64,000 nucleotides of DNA from positions 558,001 through 622,000 of the forward strand of contig NZ_BDCO01000002.1 in NCBI RefSeq assembly GCF_001613545.1, in the 5' to 3' direction. The notes below the pieces were generated by a model, which had not been told where the DNA came from, did no database searches, and worked only from the letters and a program-made list of their open reading frames with translations. Below, in pieces: positions 26,473-56,580 of the stretch; position 1 is the first letter of the stretch, and every line of letters starts with the position of its first letter. Origin of the DNA: Terrimicrobium sacchariphilum (GTDB lineage Bacteria; Verrucomicrobiota; Verrucomicrobiia; Chthoniobacterales; Terrimicrobiaceae). A program made the position numbers and the translations under genes.

Positions 26473-26937
26473 CTACGGCGTAAAGAGCCAGCCAATGAGG
26501 CCGAATAACAGCCCGTTGAGCGCAAAGACCGCGCCAAACGCGACCAGGATGAAGGCCCTCTTGCTCACGCCCGGCTCCAGCACGGAGGTCTGCGGGCGGG
26601 CCGGATCGTACGCCACGGGAACGGTCGAGCCCTCGGGGTATTTGTTGTCGTAATACTGGGCAAAGCTGCGGCTGGCGGAGGAACCCTTCAGCCCATACGC
26701 GATGAGATCGCCGCAGTACTCCGTGCCGTCCACCGTGTAGGTGTAGGTGACCTCGGGCTTGTAGGTCCTGCCGCCCTTGGACCCGCGCTGGCTGGTCACC
26801 GTCGAGGTGCGAATGATCCCCTGCGCCGAAGGCCACGCCGCGCTCTCCCGCGCCTGGAGCACCGTCCGCACGCCGAAGCCCGCGACAGTGACCCCGACGA
26901 GGAAAAAGATACCGAGAAAGATGGCGACAAAGTTCAT
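26473..26937 (-). CDS. DUF3592-type membrane protein (paralogue)
   Basis: 154 residues; ATG at 26937 (MNFVAIFLGIFFLVG) is chosen as the first start next to the hydrophobic segment. Two transmembrane helices flank a DUF3592 domain: WPSAQGIIRTSTVTSQ, VTYTYTVDGTEYCGDLIAYG, STVPVAYDPARPQTSVLEPG. It is the paralogue of the gene at 25921-26412, 60 bases away on the same strand. Function unknown. The region upstream leads into the AT-rich island. Confidence 0.85.
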   Translation of the reverse strand: MNFVAIFLGIFFLVGVTVAGFGVRTVLQARESAAWPSAQGIIRTSTVTSQRGSKGGRTYKPEVTYTYTVDGTEYCGDLIAYGLKGSSASRSFAQYYDNKYPEGSTVPVAYDPARPQTSVLEPGVSKRAFILVAFGAVFALNGLLFGLIGWLFTP

Positions 26938-27337
26938 GATGTGATGGTTTCGCTTATACATCATCGCTTCCGCAAAAGCGATCCTAACCTTAGGAAATCT
27001 GTCGAAAACCATGCTAATACGGCAACCCTTGCAAGTTTGGCATGGGGGGATTTTTGCCAGTGCGTGCATGCCTGCCTCGACGAATCCGCGCGAGGTGTTG
27101 GGGAATTCGCTCCGGACGAAGCAATCCACCCACCCGCCGCGCACCCCTGGCTCGCGATGCCCCAACCATCCGTTCGCGGGAAAGAACCGCCCTCCGGTGT
27201 TTCCGAAAGGTTTTCAAAAAAACACCATCGGGAGCGAGAGGGAGAGAGCAACCGCCCGCCGCCCGCAGCGGCGACCCGTGGAATCCCACGCCGCCCGTAC
27301 TCTCTCTCTGGTTGGGTACTGTACTGTTCTGTGTAGC
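26938..27337. other. Intergenic interval before the phased array
   Basis: No supported gene. The end (27316-27335) holds short TACTGT/TTCTGT iterations running directly into the GTGAC array. Confidence 0.4.
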
Positions 27338-27425
27338 GTGACGTCACCGTGACAGGGCGTGACATCCCGTGTGACATGAGCGTGACGTCACAGTGACAAC
27401 AGCGTGACATGCCCGTGACAGGTCC
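27338..27425 (+). repeat. Array of eight GTGAC motifs in helical phase
   Basis: GTGAC begins at 27338, 27349, 27359, 27371, 27382, 27393, 27404 and 27415: steps of 11, 10, 12, 11, 11, 11 and 11 bases, so all lie on nearly the same face of B-DNA. Units 1 and 5 extend to the perfect palindrome GTGACGTCAC, 44 bases (four turns) apart. The array ends about 110 bases before the start of the nuclease-NACHT gene. It looks like an iteron or operator array for a cooperative DNA-binding protein. Confidence 0.85.
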
Positions 27426-27536
27426 GATCGGGAATCGCTAGCGGTCTAAATCTTGTGAGTATGATCCGCTTTGCTGAATGGGCGCACTCTTTTTACTCGT
27501 AAGATACACCGAAAAATTTAGATTTTCCATCCATCT

Positions 27537-30500
27537 ATGCACGACTATCAGCTGGAACGTCTTAATACCCGCTCATTTGAGCAGCTTATTCAAGCTCTTG
27601 GCTTGGAAATAATTGGTAAGCAGTTGATGGTTTTTGGTGACGGTCCGGACGGCGGACGAGAAGCTTCGTTTGATGGTTTGATAAATTATCCTAGTGGGGG
27701 AAAGTGCTGGGACGGATGTGGCATTGTGCAAGCCAAGTTTCGACAATACCCGGATGCTCTTGCCAAGGTCAATGCCGATTGGGCTATTAAACAGTTGAAT
27801 TCGGAGCTTTCGAAATTTGAGCCGCGACGGGAGAGCGAGAAGCAGGTTGTGCGAGGAGAAAGAATATGTCCCGAATACTACGTATTTGCTACAAACTTGT
27901 CTCTAAGTTCTGTAGCGAAAACGGGAGGAAAGGATCGTATATGTTCTATTCTAGACAATTTCAAAAAATCTCACGGGCTGAAAGATTATGCTGTGTGGGA
28001 CCGTGATCAGATATGCCGATTTCTAGATGTATATCGTGATATTCGTTCCACTTATGCAGCGTGGTTGCTTTCGGGTGATGTTCTGGCGGAAGTTGCAGAT
28101 TTTGTTCGGCTTAAGAAAACAGACTTTCTTAAAACTATTCGACGATATCTAGAAGTTGGGTTGCTGGATGATCAATTTGCGAAGCTTAGTCAGGGTGGAT
28201 ACACGGACGCAACCGCAATTCCTCTATCCAGAGTTTTTGTAGATCTGCCCGTAAAGGTGTCAAATGAACGAAATTATATAGATTCATCTTCTGACGAGTA
28301 CGATTTTAATGATCTCTCTGATGAGGAGTTGGATTTAAATGAGCAGGAACGAGTGACCTTTCTCGATCTATTTTTTGAAGAAGGTCGTCAGGTATTGAAG
28401 CCTTCGGCTAATTTCAACAATAAATTGGGAAGTGCTGGTCTGAGGCAGACAGCTGGAAGGGTGGTTTTGGTTGGTGGTCCAGGCCAAGGCAAGACTACAA
28501 TTAGTCAATTTGCGTGTCAGTTGTATAGAGCTGCGCTACTTCAAGAAGATTCCGCTAAACGGTCCCCTCAGGTTCGAGCTGCGTTATCTCATATTGAAAA
28601 TCAGGCTGGCGACATTCCGAAACCGAAGGTTCTTCGCTATCCGCTGCGTATTGATCTGAAGAAGTTGGCTGAATCGCTCGCCGGGGAGGGTGGTCTTTCG
28701 TCCAGTTCACTTCTTGATTATCTGGTAAAACATATATCGGAGAGAACCGACTGTGAATTAAGTAAATCTGAATTTCGCAAATGGCTATCGAGTTATCCTT
28801 GGTTGATTGTTCTTGATGGTCTTGATGAAGTGCCTGCCTCAAGTAATCGCAAGAGAATGATGGATGCAATTCGTGATTTTGTTAGCTCGGAAGTGCACGA
28901 TGAGGACGCAGACATATTAATTCTAGCAACTACGAGGCCTCAAGGTTATTCCGATGAATTTGATCCAAACTTCTATCTTCATCTTCCGCTTGCTTCGCTT
29001 AATGCAAATGAAGCGCTGAAGTATGGTAGTAGGCTCGCGAGTGCACGTCATCCTAATAATAATTTAAGGGTTGATGATCTCTGTAGTGCTCTGAAGAGAG
29101 CTACGGAAAACCCTGCTACCGTGCGTTTGATGGAATCTCCCTTGCAGGTAACGATCATGCTTGCACTTATTGAAGGCGGAGGAGAGCCGCCTGAACAGCG
29201 GTGGAAGCTTTTTCACGATTATTATGATGTGATTTATCGAAGGGAAAAGGAGCGAAACACAATTTTTTCAAAAATTCTTAGAACATATGAACCAGATATT
29301 CATTGGCTTCATCATCGCGCGGGTTGGGTGCTGCAACAGCGGAACGCTGCGATTGGTTCTACCGCAGCGCGGCTTTCTCATTCTGAATTTGAGGAAATCG
29401 TGGAAACTAGACTGCAAAAGCGTGGGCACTCGGAATCGGAAGGGCGCGCAACACTTGTAAGGCAAATACGGGAAGCTGCAACCGATCGACTTGTGTTTCT
29501 AGTAGGGAATAGCGCCAACGAGATTGGATTCGAGATTCGTTCCCTTCAGGAGTTTATGGCGGCTGAACATATCTTTTCGGGGCCAGAATCATGCGTGCTA
29601 GAAACAATTCGTGAAATAGCTCCTCACTCTTACTGGAGAAATGTATTCCTGTTTGCAGCTGGTAGGATATTCTTTGAAAAAGAACATCTAACGGATTCCT
29701 TAATTGGTATCTGTGGACGGTTGAATGAGGTGATTGTCAACCAGGAGCGCAAATTTATTGCTCCGGGTTCCCGGCTTGCGTTAGCAATGCTGGAAGATGG
29801 CGTGTCGAGAAATCAACCGGAGAATTCTCGTGCCCTTTCGCGTTGTGCAGCACGAATACTGGATGTGCTGCTTCCCGATGAGACTTCGAGGTTGCTCGAA
29901 TTATTTTCAAGCGAGGCTAAGGAGGTGTGGAATGAAGAGCTTGGGAGAAGATTGCAGGTAGATGAAGGATGTTTTCCTTATGCTCTTTGGAAGCTGTGTT
30001 TGGATCTGGTTCGAGGAGGTAACAAATTTGCCGAGAATCTGATGCTAACAGGCTTTCCGTGGAAGAGTGATAGTGTTGGAGTGTTTCTTTCGGAGGTGGT
30101 TCCGGAAATCTCGAGAATTCCGTCGGAATTTTGGATTTCATTTAGGAATTATATTTATGTGCATTCTCCGGCTATATGGAGGCGGATGTTTGCTGGAGAA
30201 ATGCTGCCGCAGTCGTTGAGATTTTCACCGATCAAAGAGCTCTTTAATATATACTCTCAAGACTTTGAAAGTGATGGAATTACTTTGCTTGATAACGATG
30301 GGGCGGAAACCTGTAATGCTCTAGTCTATAATGGTGACCGAAGACTTGCTCAATGGGCGGAATTGGGAAATCTTCCAGAAGAGGTGAGTGCGGATGTGCA
30401 TCCGGTCTGGGGTGATTTTTGTTTGGTTTCCGAGTTTGCTCGCAATTGCTCATCGGAAAACTTAATCCGACAGTTTTCGTTAATGAGTAGCGATTTTTCT

Positions 30501-30797
30501 TGTGGAGAGTCGGTCTCTGGCGAGTTTCCGTGGCAAATAAATGCGTGCCTTATTGCTCGGCAATTAGGGTTTTCAGTTGAGGAGATTTGCAAGGTAATTC
30601 ATGGTGGAGGATTGGGGCATGTTGCTGACTGGGAGCGCTGGGGTGCCGCTTGGAGGGGTGGTATTAGAATTTCTGAATTGGGATTCCCGAAAGATAAGTT
30701 TAAGTTAGTTTCCGATCAGCATCAAGGTATTGTGTTTTCTGCGAATGCATGGCGTCATAGCGGGGGGGTGATGAGGCGCAGTTTGCTGTTGCTTTAA
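27537..30797 (+). CDS. Mrr/PD-(D/E)XK-like nuclease fused to NACHT (STAND) NTPase, frame 1 of a split gene
   Basis: The frame gives 1086 residues. Residues 1-180 look like an Mrr-type restriction-endonuclease fold: FEQLIQA helix, GDGPDGGREASFDG and QAKFR (catalytic-type D/E and Q-x-K). Residues about 313-330 carry Walker A (GGPGQGKTT) and about 422-432 the NACHT-type Walker B (LIVLDGLDE); further downstream SLQEFMAAEH is a common NACHT hallmark. The rest is a long alpha-helical region, presumably the sensor. This layout is that of bacterial STAND/NACHT (Avs-like, bNACHT) anti-phage proteins, in which phage-protein sensing triggers the nuclease. DNA is much AT-richer than the neighbours and codon choice differs, pointing to transfer. 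The frame ends just after a G7 run; the next frame continues the protein. Defence role is inferred. Confidence 0.8.
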   Translation: MHDYQLERLNTRSFEQLIQALGLEIIGKQLMVFGDGPDGGREASFDGLINYPSGGKCWDGCGIVQAKFRQYPDALAKVNADWAIKQLNSELSKFEPRRESEKQVVRGERICPEYYVFATNLSLSSVAKTGGKDRICSILDNFKKSHGLKDYAVWDRDQICRFLDVYRDIRSTYAAWLLSGDVLAEVADFVRLKKTDFLKTIRRYLEVGLLDDQFAKLSQGGYTDATAIPLSRVFVDLPVKVSNERNYIDSSSDEYDFNDLSDEELDLNEQERVTFLDLFFEEGRQVLKPSANFNNKLGSAGLRQTAGRVVLVGGPGQGKTTISQFACQLYRAALLQEDSAKRSPQVRAALSHIENQAGDIPKPKVLRYPLRIDLKKLAESLAGEGGLSSSSLLDYLVKHISERTDCELSKSEFRKWLSSYPWLIVLDGLDEVPASSNRKRMMDAIRDFVSSEVHDEDADILILATTRPQGYSDEFDPNFYLHLPLASLNANEALKYGSRLASARHPNNNLRVDDLCSALKRATENPATVRLMESPLQVTIMLALIEGGGEPPEQRWKLFHDYYDVIYRREKERNTIFSKILRTYEPDIHWLHHRAGWVLQQRNAAIGSTAARLSHSEFEEIVETRLQKRGHSESEGRATLVRQIREAATDRLVFLVGNSANEIGFEIRSLQEFMAAEHIFSGPESCVLETIREIAPHSYWRNVFLFAAGRIFFEKEHLTDSLIGICGRLNEVIVNQERKFIAPGSRLALAMLEDGVSRNQPENSRALSRCAARILDVLLPDETSRLLELFSSEAKEVWNEELGRRLQVDEGCFPYALWKLCLDLVRGGNKFAENLMLTGFPWKSDSVGVFLSEVVPEISRIPSEFWISFRNYIYVHSPAIWRRMFAGEMLPQSLRFSPIKELFNIYSQDFESDGITLLDNDGAETCNALVYNGDRRLAQWAELGNLPEEVSADVHPVWGDFCLVSEFARNCSSENLIRQFSLMSSDFSCGESVSGEFPWQINACLIARQLGFSVEEICKVIHGGGLGHVADWERWGAAWRGGIRISELGFPKDKFKLVSDQHQGIVFSANAWRHSGGVMRRSLLLL
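30762..30768 (+). repeat. Run of seven G at the frame break
   Basis: The first frame reads AGC GGG GGG GTG ATG here and stops at 30797. One extra G, or a -1 ribosomal slip, would read on into the downstream frame without a stop, giving about 1337 residues in all. Confidence 0.85.
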
Positions 30798-31549
30798 CTA
30801 AAGCTTTGCCTTATCTGAAAGCCGATAGCGCTGTAGTTAGGAGTCTGCTTGATGTGTGCTGCTTTGGGCTTGGAAATTGTGCGGATGAGTGGGGAGGTGG
30901 CATTTTCCCGACGATTGAGAATTTGATTGAGGTGTGTTCCAAGCTGGGAGCTCAGTTGCCGCGCGCCCTTGTGGCTGCTATTCTTCAATCTCCTTTTGGG
31001 GTGGACGAAAAAATGAGGCTCGTCGGTTTAATCGGTCCTAACGTGGAGTCGCGGTCATGGTTGTCTTTTGGCGGGGGACGTTCTGATAGGGTAAATGCAT
31101 CGTCTCAACTTCTCGTTGAGAAGTTCGGTGAATCCGAAATCCTAGATGAATTCTTTGGCGCAATTTCTTGTCTTCCACCGCTTGCGTTTCTCCGTATGAT
31201 GCCAACAGGCTATCTGCAAAGCTGCCGGTTGCGTGGCGGTCTCTACAGGCGGGCAGCAAGTGTCCTTAGAATTAACAGTCTGCGATGGGAGGGAGCTGAA
31301 AATGAAATTGCGACTGAGGCATTGCAGCTGAGTTCAAAATTTCCAAGGCTTCTTGAAGAGCTGTTCAGATTTATAGATCTACAAGGGCTATGTGGTAGCG
31401 ACATCGAGGAGGTTGTTGTTCTTTTGTTGCAGGCTTCATGTCCGGCGTTATCTGTTTCGCTGAAGCATAGTGGGCTCCGCCTGCTTGTTAAGCTTGTCGA
31501 GCGTCGACCGGCAATGACAGTCATTCCTGATCCTTTGATGGCGAAATGA
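30770..31549 (+). CDS. C-terminal part of the nuclease-NACHT protein, second frame
   Basis: From 30770 this frame is open to a stop at 31549, about 259 residues (DEAQFAVALTKALPYLKADS and onward). A TTG at 30806 could start it separately, but no ribosome site is evident. AT-rich composition and helical-repeat character (VVRSLLDVCCFGLG, LQLSSKFPRLLEELFRFIDL, LRLLVKLVERRPAM) are the same as in the preceding frame. It is best read as the continuation of one gene interrupted at the G7 run. It may belong to the sensor region. Whether it is expressed as a fusion, a separate chain or not at all cannot be decided here. Confidence 0.7.
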   Translation, partial: DEAQFAVALTKALPYLKADSAVVRSLLDVCCFGLGNCADEWGGGIFPTIENLIEVCSKLGAQLPRALVAAILQSPFGVDEKMRLVGLIGPNVESRSWLSFGGGRSDRVNASSQLLVEKFGESEILDEFFGAISCLPPLAFLRMMPTGYLQSCRLRGGLYRRAASVLRINSLRWEGAENEIATEALQLSSKFPRLLEELFRFIDLQGLCGSDIEEVVVLLLQASCPALSVSLKHSGLRLLVKLVERRPAMTVIPDPLMAK

Positions 31550-31599: not shown

Positions 31600-31855
31600 G
31601 ATGTAGGAATAGCTTAATAGGACTATATAGGAGACCGGTTTTTTGCTGGCGCGCCGGGCAGAGGAGTCTGAGCGATGCGCAGAAGGTGAAGAGGGCGTGG
31701 AGGTCTTCGGTGGGGTCAGCGGGGTTTTGTTCCTGCGGGGCGAGGGATTCGGCGAGGGTGCGGCCTGCTGCTAATGTCTGAGGAGGGTGTATTGACTGGC
31801 ATTAAGGAGCCTTAAGTAGGCGCTGTGGTCGGCTCGGTAGACGAAGAGGTGGATG
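31600..31855 (-). pseudogene. Possible DUF2063 (HvfC-like) C-terminal remnant, frameshifted
   Basis: On the minus strand one frame reads HLFVYRADHSAYLRLLNASQ YTLLR and stops. One shift later a second frame continues LAAGRTLAESLAPQEQ and then DLHALFTFCASLRLL. Joined, this resembles the C-terminal domain of DUF2063 proteins (a strand-rich RxDxxxYxRRLxxxExALLxALxxGxxLxEA pattern). I see no N-terminal half or partner gene. It is a tentative call for a decayed gene. Confidence 0.35.
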
Positions 31856-31992
31856 GCCTCGGGGCGGAAGCGGTGGGCTATGGCCGGGCTGGTTGCTTCG
31901 GTCCGCCCGGGCGCTGGTGTCGGCGCGGAGGTGGTTGCACATGAGGCGGATGACGATGTCGTAGACGGGGTAACGGAGCGCGAACAGCGGGC

Positions 31993-32076
31993 GTGGAACT
32001 GGAAGCGCGGATCACCGCCGCGACGAAGAAACACAACAAGTACCTCAAGGAACTCGGCCTCCCGCCGCTGCCGTAG
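31993..32076 (+). pseudogene. Possible C-terminal remnant of a type I DNA methylase (HsdM-like)
   Basis: A short open tail ending TAG at 32074 reads VELEARITAATKKHNKYLKE and then LGLPPLP. The pattern of a helix ending KHNxxLxELGLPPLP is one I associate with C termini of N6-adenine (HsdM-type) methylases. Nothing upstream in frame continues it; a stop lies at 31957. If right, it is the end of a lost restriction-modification locus next to the NACHT gene. Confidence 0.35.
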
Positions 32077-32082
32077 GGGCAG

Positions 32083-32190
32083 GGATTTTTACAAAAGACC
32101 GCCAAGGCAGGGACGAACAAAAGGAAGCGAAGGAAACGAAGGGGGAGGCAGGAAGGCCGTCAACCGAAGGGCGCGAAGGGTTTGGCTGCG
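32083..32190 (+). repeat. Dispersed AAGG-phased repeat, copy 2
   Basis: Begins TTTTTACAAAAGACCGCCAA and includes GAACAAAAGGAAGCGAAGG; AAGG recurs at about 9-base steps, ending near GAAGGGCGCGAAGGG. Same family as the copies at 49 and 56 kb. Confidence 0.7.
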
Positions 32191-51995: not shown

Positions 51996-52017
51996 GAGGA
52001 AATGTGGTAGTCTTTAA

Positions 52018-52047
52018 TGTCAAGTAAGAGAGTTCAAAAACTTGACA
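52018..52047. promoter_or_regulatory. Inverted repeat before the AbiE locus
   Basis: TGTCAAGT (52018-52025) and ACTTGACA (52040-52047), 14 bases apart. The right arm includes TTGACA, a -35 candidate. An AbiEi antitoxin would be expected to bind such a site for autorepression. Confidence 0.5.
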
Positions 52048-52076
52048 ATAATTGGCAAGAAGCGGAACCTTCTCGC

Positions 52077-52814
52077 ATGGCAAAGCGCTCCCGGGATGAA
52101 TCTGTCGCCGCCAAGATCCTGCAGCGGATCTTGCGAGGCGGGGCGGATCGTCTTTGGGGGTTGCGGGATTTTCTCGATATCGATACGGCGACTGCTGCGG
52201 GGGTGGCGGCGACGCTTTCCCGTCTCTCTCGGCAGGGAACTTTGCGGCGTATTCGGCGAGGAGTTTACTATCGACCGGGGAAGACAGCCTTTGGAGAGAG
52301 CCAGCCTGCGGCGGAGGCGGTGGCGAAGTTTCTGCTGCGTGATCGGAAGACCGTGCGCACTGGTGAGTTTAACCGGCTCGGCCTGACGACTCAGATGAGC
52401 AATGCGCTGATCAATGCCTCGGATCGGCCCGTGCGAATGAAGGGACTGAGCGGGGTGGGCCTGCGCTTTGTGAACAGGCCATTGTCGGATCAGAAAGGCA
52501 TTCTGGCCGAGGAGCGTACGGCGCTCGATTCGCTGCGGATGCTGGAGAAAATTCCTGACGCAACGCCGGAGCAGACGCTTTCTCGTCTGCTCGGTCTGGT
52601 GAGGCACGGGAAGCTGGATTTTGATCGCCTGGCCCGTTTCGCCCTGGCGGAACCTCCTCGAGTGAGGGCGCTGCTGGGTGCGATTGGCGAGACTGCTGGA
52701 GTCGATGCGGGAAAACTCGCCCTGCTGAAGAAGTCCCTGAACCCCATCACCACCTATCGGATCGCAGGGGCTGCGTCTGTATTGGCAAATCCCACGACTT
52801 GGAATATCAAATGA
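52077..52814 (+). CDS. AbiEi-family antitoxin
   Basis: Type IV antitoxin of 245 residues, starting at 52077 (MAKRSRDESVAAKILQRILR). A longer version from 52017 would cross the inverted repeat. The N-terminal winged helix reads DRLWGLRDFLDIDTATAAGV, AATLSRLSRQGTLRRIRRGV, YYRPGKTAFGE. The rest has the predicted antitoxin domain that counteracts the AbiEii nucleotidyltransferase without direct binding. The toxin gene follows with an ATGA overlap. The pair may stabilise the local region or act as abortive phage defence. Confidence 0.8.
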   Translation: MAKRSRDESVAAKILQRILRGGADRLWGLRDFLDIDTATAAGVAATLSRLSRQGTLRRIRRGVYYRPGKTAFGESQPAAEAVAKFLLRDRKTVRTGEFNRLGLTTQMSNALINASDRPVRMKGLSGVGLRFVNRPLSDQKGILAEERTALDSLRMLEKIPDATPEQTLSRLLGLVRHGKLDFDRLARFALAEPPRVRALLGAIGETAGVDAGKLALLKKSLNPITTYRIAGAASVLANPTTWNIK

Positions 52815-53809
52815 AAACGCTCGATACGCATCCCGAGTTTAGCCAGCTCGTTAACATCACAGCGCAGGAGTTGGGCATTCGGACCGAGTTTGTGGTCAAA
52901 GACTATTGGGTGACGCGGATTCTACGCGCCATCGCCACGGATGATTCTATGCGTCGTCAGGTGATCTTCAAAGGTGGTACCAGCTTGTCCAAAGGGTGGA
53001 AGTTGATCGACCGATTTTCCGAGGATGTCGACCTTTTGGCGACTGGACCGGATTTCTCTGGTCCTCCGGGAGGCAAGGCACGCGAGCGGCTCTTCAAGGC
53101 GATTCGGAGTCGAGTTGAACGCGAGACTCCTCTTCGACTGCCGGAGATGAGTGATATTGCGCCCGGAGACCGGAATTTCCTTTATCTTAGGGGACCGCAT
53201 AAATGCGACATTCGTTACCCGCTCCCAGGTCGAGTGATTAGTAGGAGCAGTGCATACACGGAGTTTGTCTTTCTGGAAATGGGTTTCCGAGGCGGGCCGA
53301 ATCCGCATGTGGCGGTCGCATTGAATTCGTTTGTCGGCGAGTATATCCTCGGCCTCGCGGCGGACCAACACTCAGCGCTGGCAGATTATGCGGAGGATTT
53401 TGCCGCCTTCGAGATGGAGTTGCTTGATCCGGTCCGTACCTTTGTCGAGAAGCTGCTGGTTCTCCATGGTTCGCTGGCGAAAGGCATCAAGGGCGTGCGG
53501 ACGCGACATTTCTACGATCTCGATTCGTTGTTTCGGAAAAGTGAGTCTGTGCGCACATCGCTGCAGAGCGAGCAGTTTCCTGCTCTAGTGAAAGATGCCT
53601 TGCGGATCACGAGAGAGTATTTCGATGCCGATCTCGACCCGAACCTGAATCTCGCGGAGAGCCCTGTGCTCAACCTGACAGCGGAGCAAATTAGCGAGTT
53701 GACGATCCAGTATCGCGGGGAGCGGGATTACTATTTTGGCCGACAACCGCCATTTGGCGAACTGGTGGAAACGTTGGCGGAGGTCAGGGCATTGCTACGA
53801 GATCGCTGA
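52811..53809 (+). CDS. AbiEii/AbiGii-family nucleotidyltransferase toxin
   Basis: 332 residues from 52811, overlapping the antitoxin stop (ATGA). The DNA polymerase-beta-like nucleotidyltransferase motif is FKGGTSLSKGWKL with RFSEDVDLLA, the GSx10DxD-type signature of AbiEii. The catalytic Lys is in GVRTRHFYDLDSLF. The toxin adds nucleotides to tRNA 3' ends or otherwise blocks translation, causing growth arrest when unopposed. Coupled translation keeps the antitoxin in excess. Assignment of the family is firm; target is inferred. Confidence 0.9.
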   Translation: MKTLDTHPEFSQLVNITAQELGIRTEFVVKDYWVTRILRAIATDDSMRRQVIFKGGTSLSKGWKLIDRFSEDVDLLATGPDFSGPPGGKARERLFKAIRSRVERETPLRLPEMSDIAPGDRNFLYLRGPHKCDIRYPLPGRVISRSSAYTEFVFLEMGFRGGPNPHVAVALNSFVGEYILGLAADQHSALADYAEDFAAFEMELLDPVRTFVEKLLVLHGSLAKGIKGVRTRHFYDLDSLFRKSESVRTSLQSEQFPALVKDALRITREYFDADLDPNLNLAESPVLNLTAEQISELTIQYRGERDYYFGRQPPFGELVETLAEVRALLRDR

Positions 53810-56029: not shown

Positions 56030-56580
56030 GATTGAAACAGAAGGACTCGAAGGCAGGGATCAAACAGAAGGAAGCGAAGGAAGCAAAGGGCTAGGCCGAA
56101 CGGGGTGGCGGCTCGGCGGGAACCTCGATAGCCCGCTGAGGTGGCCCGGGGGAGGGAAAGACAGATTTTACAGAAGGACGCAAAGGACACAAAGGGGAAG
56201 GACTCAAAGGCAGGGATCAAACAGAAGGAAGCGAAGGAAGCAAATGGCTAGGCCGAAAGCGGGGTGGCGGCTCGCCGGGAACCTCGATAGTCCGCTGAGG
56301 TGGCGCGAGGGAGGGAAAGACAGATTTTACAGAAGGTCGCGAAGGACACAAAGGGGAAGGACTCGAAGGCAGGGATCAAACAGAAGGAAGCTAAGGAAGC
56401 AAAGAGGGAGACGAAGTCGGAGGTGGGAGGCTGGAAGTTTTCGGATTCGTGTGGCTGAGTGGCGCGGTGGAGTTCGGTCGCGCGGTGCGCAGGCGGGGGA
56501 GGAAGGCGGATTTTTACAGAAGGTCGCGAAGGGGGAGACCGCTAAGGCTGGAAGTCAATAGAAGGAAGCGAAGGGTTGGA
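56030..56580 (+). repeat. About 158-bp tandem repeat built on AAGG-phased ends
   Basis: CAAACAGAAGG recurs at 56061, 56218 and 56377, i.e. intervals of 157 and 159. Each unit contains an AAGG-phased part and a core GGTGGCGGCTCGGCGGGAAC. A further degenerate copy ends near 56570. It fills 55977-56602, where no gene is supported. Confidence 0.85.

Follow-up and report, generated by a model that had tools for sequence, protein, structure and literature searches.

The phased GTGAC array in the window, by which we mean the whole 64,000-nucleotide stretch of the Terrimicrobium sacchariphilum genome analysed here, is in all likelihood a stranded non-coding copy of origin repeats of the kind found within the genes of one family of phage replication initiators. 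The features of the locus on which this reading is based are as follows.

26473 to 26964, minus strand: DUF3592 gene (Pfam PF12158, 5e-18), by synteny a neighbour of the orphan arrays in 3/3 congeners
27102 to 27301, minus strand: decayed remainder of initiator linker-coding sequence, located by tblastn
27302 to 27335, minus strand: tract ACACAGAACAGTACAGTACCCAACCAGAGAGAGAG, the counterpart of the NACC-rich tract after the iterons in initiator genes, by sequence identity with the linkers of initiator genes L003 and L006
27338 to 27419, minus strand: orphan iteron array, eight GTGAC units (GTCAC on the minus strand, the sense of the initiator gene) in an 11-bp register
27338 to 27347, no strand: palindrome GTGACGTCAC, first copy
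27382 to 27391, no strand: palindrome GTGACGTCAC again, 44 bp after the first copy
27420 to 27436, no strand: limit of the homology to the orphan array at the syntenic place in sister species G194 (AGGTCCGATCG...), beyond which cargo specific to this species starts
27537 to 30797, plus strand: accessory gene of nuclease-NACHT-like type, regarded as cargo, with no counterpart found here in the other congeners

GTGAC starts were mapped in the window sequence to 27338, 27349, 27359, 27371, 27382, 27393, 27404 and 27415, which reproduces the eight motifs at intervals of 11, 10, 12, 11, 11, 11 and 11 bases given in a preliminary description of this DNA, and both palindromes were located as it had reported them. 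The units are tandem direct iterons 10-12 bp apart, which is helical spacing. When the whole window was searched for three GTGAC motifs separated by gaps of 5-7 bases, six overlapping matches were obtained, all of them within the array, and none was obtained in 100 shuffles; in random first-order Markov sequences (n=60, 20 kb each) the longest run of any 5-mer at such spacing was 3, as compared with 8 in the array. Chance is far too weak to account for the eight-unit arrangement. The array was also said to lie upstream of a nuclease-NACHT gene where GC-rich sequence gives way to AT-rich sequence, and this was borne out, with the ATG of the ORF at 27537, 118 bp past the last GTGAC, and a GC content which falls from ~62% to 44-47% across 27-31 kb. 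Two things had been overlooked, namely the minus-strand tract (~27302-27335) adjoining the array and the fact that the array forms one end of a decayed gene fragment extending to ~27102. An Rfam scan and a tRNA scan of the window returned nothing.

A DNA search of the same genome using the array and its flanks returned one other place, 365 kb away, which is not intergenic and lies inside a replication initiation protein gene (L003), an ORF of 600-odd residues containing MAWIESHQEMARHPKTRRVALRLG. The N-terminal part of this chromosomal initiator matches phrog_9474 'replication initiation protein' (E 1.9e-37), and the match to the array falls in the linker directly past the predicted N-terminal winged-helix region; a PDB fold search with the predicted domain (pLDDT 88) produced only weak, non-significant matches to winged-helix regulators (E > 0.05) and does not enter into the argument. 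In the minus-strand reading, ACACAGAACAGTACAGTACCCAACCAGAGAGAGAG comes after the array of the window and ACACAGAACAGTACAGAACAGAACCAGACC...GAGAGAG after that of the initiator gene. The minus-strand ACAGAACAGTACAGTACCCAACC of the window matches the tract of L003 and of its G194 orthologue L006, a tract of distinct composition which is not A+T-rich as in lambda. At the protein level, residues 148-266 of L003 align to window 27419-27102 (E 3e-5) and residues 123-201 of L006 to window 27439-27228 (best E 2.5e-7), these matches being modest (E 1e-7 to 1e-4) and within low-complexity linker. Tblastn of the initiator proteins against the window reached the linker part only (27102-27439); no N- or C-terminal domain was detectable around the array, which is not enclosed by an intact initiator ORF. 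The window therefore holds a linker/origin relic of an initiator gene without its N- and C-terminal domains, and with both domains missing the array was classed as an orphan copy, outside the phage in-gene origins proper. Comparison of the sequences also demonstrated that the frame relation between array and tract in the window differs from that in the initiator gene.

Within the phrog_9474 family the linker-coding DNA carries 11-bp-phased iterons and then a NACC-rich tract. IMG/VR provided 309 relatives, and 68 distinct genes, drawn from the best 80 of the 309 plus genomes, were tested. A significant array in 11-bp register was present at nucleotides 300-480 of the gene, corresponding to the linker, in 34/68, as against 1/68 in the domain-coding control at 60-240, while the count of [AT]ACC downstream of the iterons had a median of 6.5 versus 0 in the first 200 nucleotides of these 68 genes. 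The iterons of the relatives are of the types GTCAC, GGAC/GTCC, GTAAC/AACGC, CACGTG and GCACGTGC, with the 11-bp phase and the NACC tract constant. At least four iteron types occur inside this one initiator family (IMG/VR loci L092-L171), and the N-terminal domain and its iterons may be matched by a specificity code. In Paenibacillus phage Harrison (NC_028746, HARRISON_65), the coding linker of the replication initiation gene contains GTCAC iterons and a CTAACC tract, and the N-terminal domain of its product is 53% identical to that of the chromosomal initiator. That gene is an intact phage gene with SSB, ERF and DnaC-like loader genes adjoining, whereas the window holds a linker relic only. 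No description of the 11-bp intragenic iterons of phrog_9474 was found in the literature covered, outside which most subscription journals fall.

The 11-bp GTGAC motif alone was dropped as a criterion, as fixed-gap scans show GTGAC/11 arrays in many unrelated contexts; among the matches listed, 2/117 four-unit 11-bp GTGAC arrays in bacterial genomes were inside such an initiator gene. Since GTGAC/11 arrays are not specific to the family, the case rests on homology and synteny and not on the motif.

The closest known arrangement is that of the lambdoid phages (lambda, P27, 933W), in which the origin is inside the O gene and direct iterons bound by the initiator in mid-gene are followed by a tract of different composition (PMC7466680). 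The in-gene relatives of phrog_9474 follow the same plan, with iterons in the middle of the initiator gene and then a distinct tract. They differ from the lambdoid origin in their 11-bp-spaced GTCAC/GGAC/GTAAC iterons, in a tract which is NACC-rich and not A+T-rich, and in belonging to another protein family, and the window array differs further in standing outside any initiator gene. The cooperative binding on one DNA face put forward in the preliminary description fits iteron biology.

Congeners were compared across three genomes only, namely the present one, the sister species G194, and G286. The orthologous chromosomal initiator of G194 (L006) has a 95% identical domain, and its linker contains nine GTGAC/GTCAC units spaced exactly 11 bp apart. 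At the place syntenic to the window array, two orphan arrays adjoin the DUF3592 gene of G194, one with 17 GTGAC units and the other made up of GTTAC/GTGAC units, and the typA side is 97% identical to the window. A 10,12 spacing pair is common to the window array and the 17-unit array of G194, and the two are therefore orthologous. Two orphan arrays were also found at the DUF3592 locus of G286, where synteny is that of the DUF3592 side only, typA not being seen within the 15 kb examined. The present species thus has one array of 8 units as against two arrays each, of up to 17 units, in the congeners, and its second array appears to have been lost by deletion between CTCTCTC tracts. This conserved chromosomal synteny of the left flank in three species argues against plasmid or integrative-element iterons still in use for replication or integration, as does the immediate neighbourhood of the array, where the DUF3592 gene and the NACHT ORF lie and neither a Rep gene nor a tRNA was found. 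The iteron form of the array and the adjoining low-GC accessory cargo would suit such an element, which we nevertheless regard as highly improbable.

The cargo beside the arrays is the nuclease-NACHT gene in the present species, RhuM together with a SeqA-like gene in G194, and in G286 a type ISP/IIG restriction-methylation enzyme of 1636 residues; in 3/3 species the cargo gene next to the array points away from it. The SeqA-like protein (Pfam SeqA 6e-14) is encoded beside RhuM at G194 L031 1599-2141. SeqA is an origin-sequestration protein in enterobacteria. With respect to the NACHT gene, no DNA match was obtained in G194 and no protein match among 387 other genomes of the phylum. The homologues of its protein are plasmid-borne and 34-36% identical at best, and an inspection of the region upstream of six of these distant homologues revealed no phased array in 6/6. 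The refuting condition in the preliminary description, which asked for the array to be missing beside close homologues, was thus applied here to distant ones. Arrays beside different genes in the congeners and none at these NACHT homologues indicate that the array is not a feature of NACHT genes; it is present in two congeners without the gene and does not accompany the six homologues, and the tie between the two which had been proposed is not upheld.

These observations bear on the possibility that the phased sites are an operator for the NACHT gene, 118 bp from the array, whose transcription a protein bound to them would control. The position of the array upstream of the NACHT gene and the orientation of the next gene, which runs away from the array in all three species, are in keeping with such control, but the congener arrays have other genes in place of the NACHT gene, the six homologues are without the array, and no sigma-70-like promoter was found, which is weak evidence; we consider an operator improbable. 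Of the three options offered earlier, an iteron left by a mobile element is well supported, through homology to the in-gene iterons of phage-type initiators, and control of the NACHT gene is not. The NACHT ORF itself stops at 30797 and is followed by a 247-aa ORF in another frame (window 30780-31549). The plasmid homologues are single proteins of 1326-1334 aa, and a tblastn with them stopped short of the second ORF. Either a frameshift in the gene or a different C-terminus is possible.

Several other features of the window were recorded. At 31654-32004 lies decayed sequence without a single open frame which is common to G286 (3' of the restriction enzyme) and G194 (C1:369244), and which we read as a shared pseudogene adjoining the cargo. 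Dispersed GAAGGAAGC/AAAGGAAACG repeats are found at window 32121-32142, 49074, 49934 and 56040-56404 and at many places in G194, as well as close to the orphan arrays of the congeners. At 52017-53809, ~25 kb from the array, two genes form a unit which includes an AbiEii-type nucleotidyltransferase (Pfam 1e-23) and is judged to be an AbiE-like type IV toxin-antitoxin pair. GC skew turns from strongly positive to negative at ~56-57 kb, and a link of the array to the chromosome origin or terminus by way of this flip near 57 kb was rejected, the 20-kb samples along the contig being too noisy to place either.

The present genome has three initiator genes, one of which is the chromosomal gene with GTKAC-type iterons at C2:949837. 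It neighbours hipA and a T5orf172/DUF4041 gene, has no phage structural genes in sight, and is not in an evident prophage. Its iterons are now mainly of the GTTAC type as against the GTGAC type of the orphan array, and its product would need to accept both types. The two further copies (L004, L005) are in prophages, with terminase and head-tail genes downstream and, in one case, a RecT-like gene upstream, and carry 11-bp-phased GGACGTCC-type iterons at the same linker position together with CAACCCAACCCAAC tracts. These prophage genes use iterons of the GGAC type, and a search for orphan arrays of the GGAC type returned solely the prophage gene itself.

The iteron types are relevant to the suggestion that the orphan iterons act as an origin decoy, titrating the initiators of incoming phages with the same iterons, hindering their replication and persisting where defence genes gather. 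The analogy is with ectopic lambda origins, which block lambda replication when placed on experimental plasmids (PMC4488673; PMC3349717); as in that system, the window would have extra initiator-binding iterons (here predicted) away from the phage genome, in this instance as a natural chromosomal copy with a putative effect. Phages with GTCAC-type iterons do exist (Harrison and several IMG/VR contigs), the cargo is defence-like in 3/3 species, and G194 has 17 units. Against this, the known decoys are carried on plasmids and the array is a single chromosomal copy of 8 units, no GTGAC-iteron phage is known here to infect the genus, and the prophages of the genome itself carry GGAC-type iterons. 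We therefore rate a decoy as unlikely. Slightly less likely again would be a broader arrangement in which a phage initiator has been domesticated in the genus and its binding sites are maintained separately, as a non-coding array at an anti-phage-gene spot, the array serving as a decoy or sensor which titrates phage initiators or switches the adjoining defence gene.

A phage-type initiator with in-gene iterons is kept in the chromosomes of the three congeners (L033, L032, L173), with no phage structural genes nearby, and it is under purifying selection in the genus, with Ka/Ks of 0.11-0.18 in the domain and 0.06 in the C-terminal part. Among the orthologous orphan arrays, 0/75 bases of the 5-base cores had changed as compared with 8/90 in the spacers (Fisher p 0.008), a test in which the units were aligned by hand and in which array units can be copied by slippage. 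With a flank divergence of 12-16%, the probability of 75 unchanged bases is <= 7e-5. Unchanged cores beside changed spacers are therefore a hint that the sites are still being bound, the conserved initiator of the chromosome being the probable binder. The main competing explanation shares the same origin and holds that the array is a non-functional relic, in which a fragment of an initiator gene decays where it landed, with inherited spacing and nothing bound to it. The loss of both protein domains, the single array of 8 units where the congeners have two and up to 17, and a frame relation of array to tract unlike that of the gene are all consistent with such decay. The unchanged cores amid diverged spacers and flanks are not what it would lead one to expect, nor is retention of the array in three species whose initiator genes have a synonymous divergence of ~0.26-0.29, and we hold a mere relic to be possible but the less probable outcome.

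Our preferred explanation, to which we assign a high probability from comparison of the sequences, is that the array is a phage-type intragenic origin in orphan form, kept as a secondary or titrating initiator-binding site. The genus has one phrog_9474-type initiator fixed in its chromosome (beside hipA in 2/3 species), and the linker/origin part of a gene of this type would have landed, long ago, upstream of the DUF3592 gene. Both protein domains would then have been lost, leaving the iterons, the tract and the decayed linker, and cargo genes, the NACHT gene included, would have been swapped in beside the array later. We infer that the orphan iterons are still occupied by the initiator, supplied by the chromosomal gene or by a prophage or phage relative and loaded cooperatively along one face of the DNA, and that the array would thereby act as a secondary or titrating site for it.

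If this is correct, in-gene phage origins can remain in a bacterial chromosome as free-standing arrays which are kept for long periods, whether as a fossil or as a working part. The conserved initiator and the orphan sites would constitute a test pair for the idea that hosts keep phage origin sequences as decoys. In the wider phrog_9474 family, varied iterons with a constant 11-bp phase and a NACC tract may be useful for locating the origins of uncultured phages.
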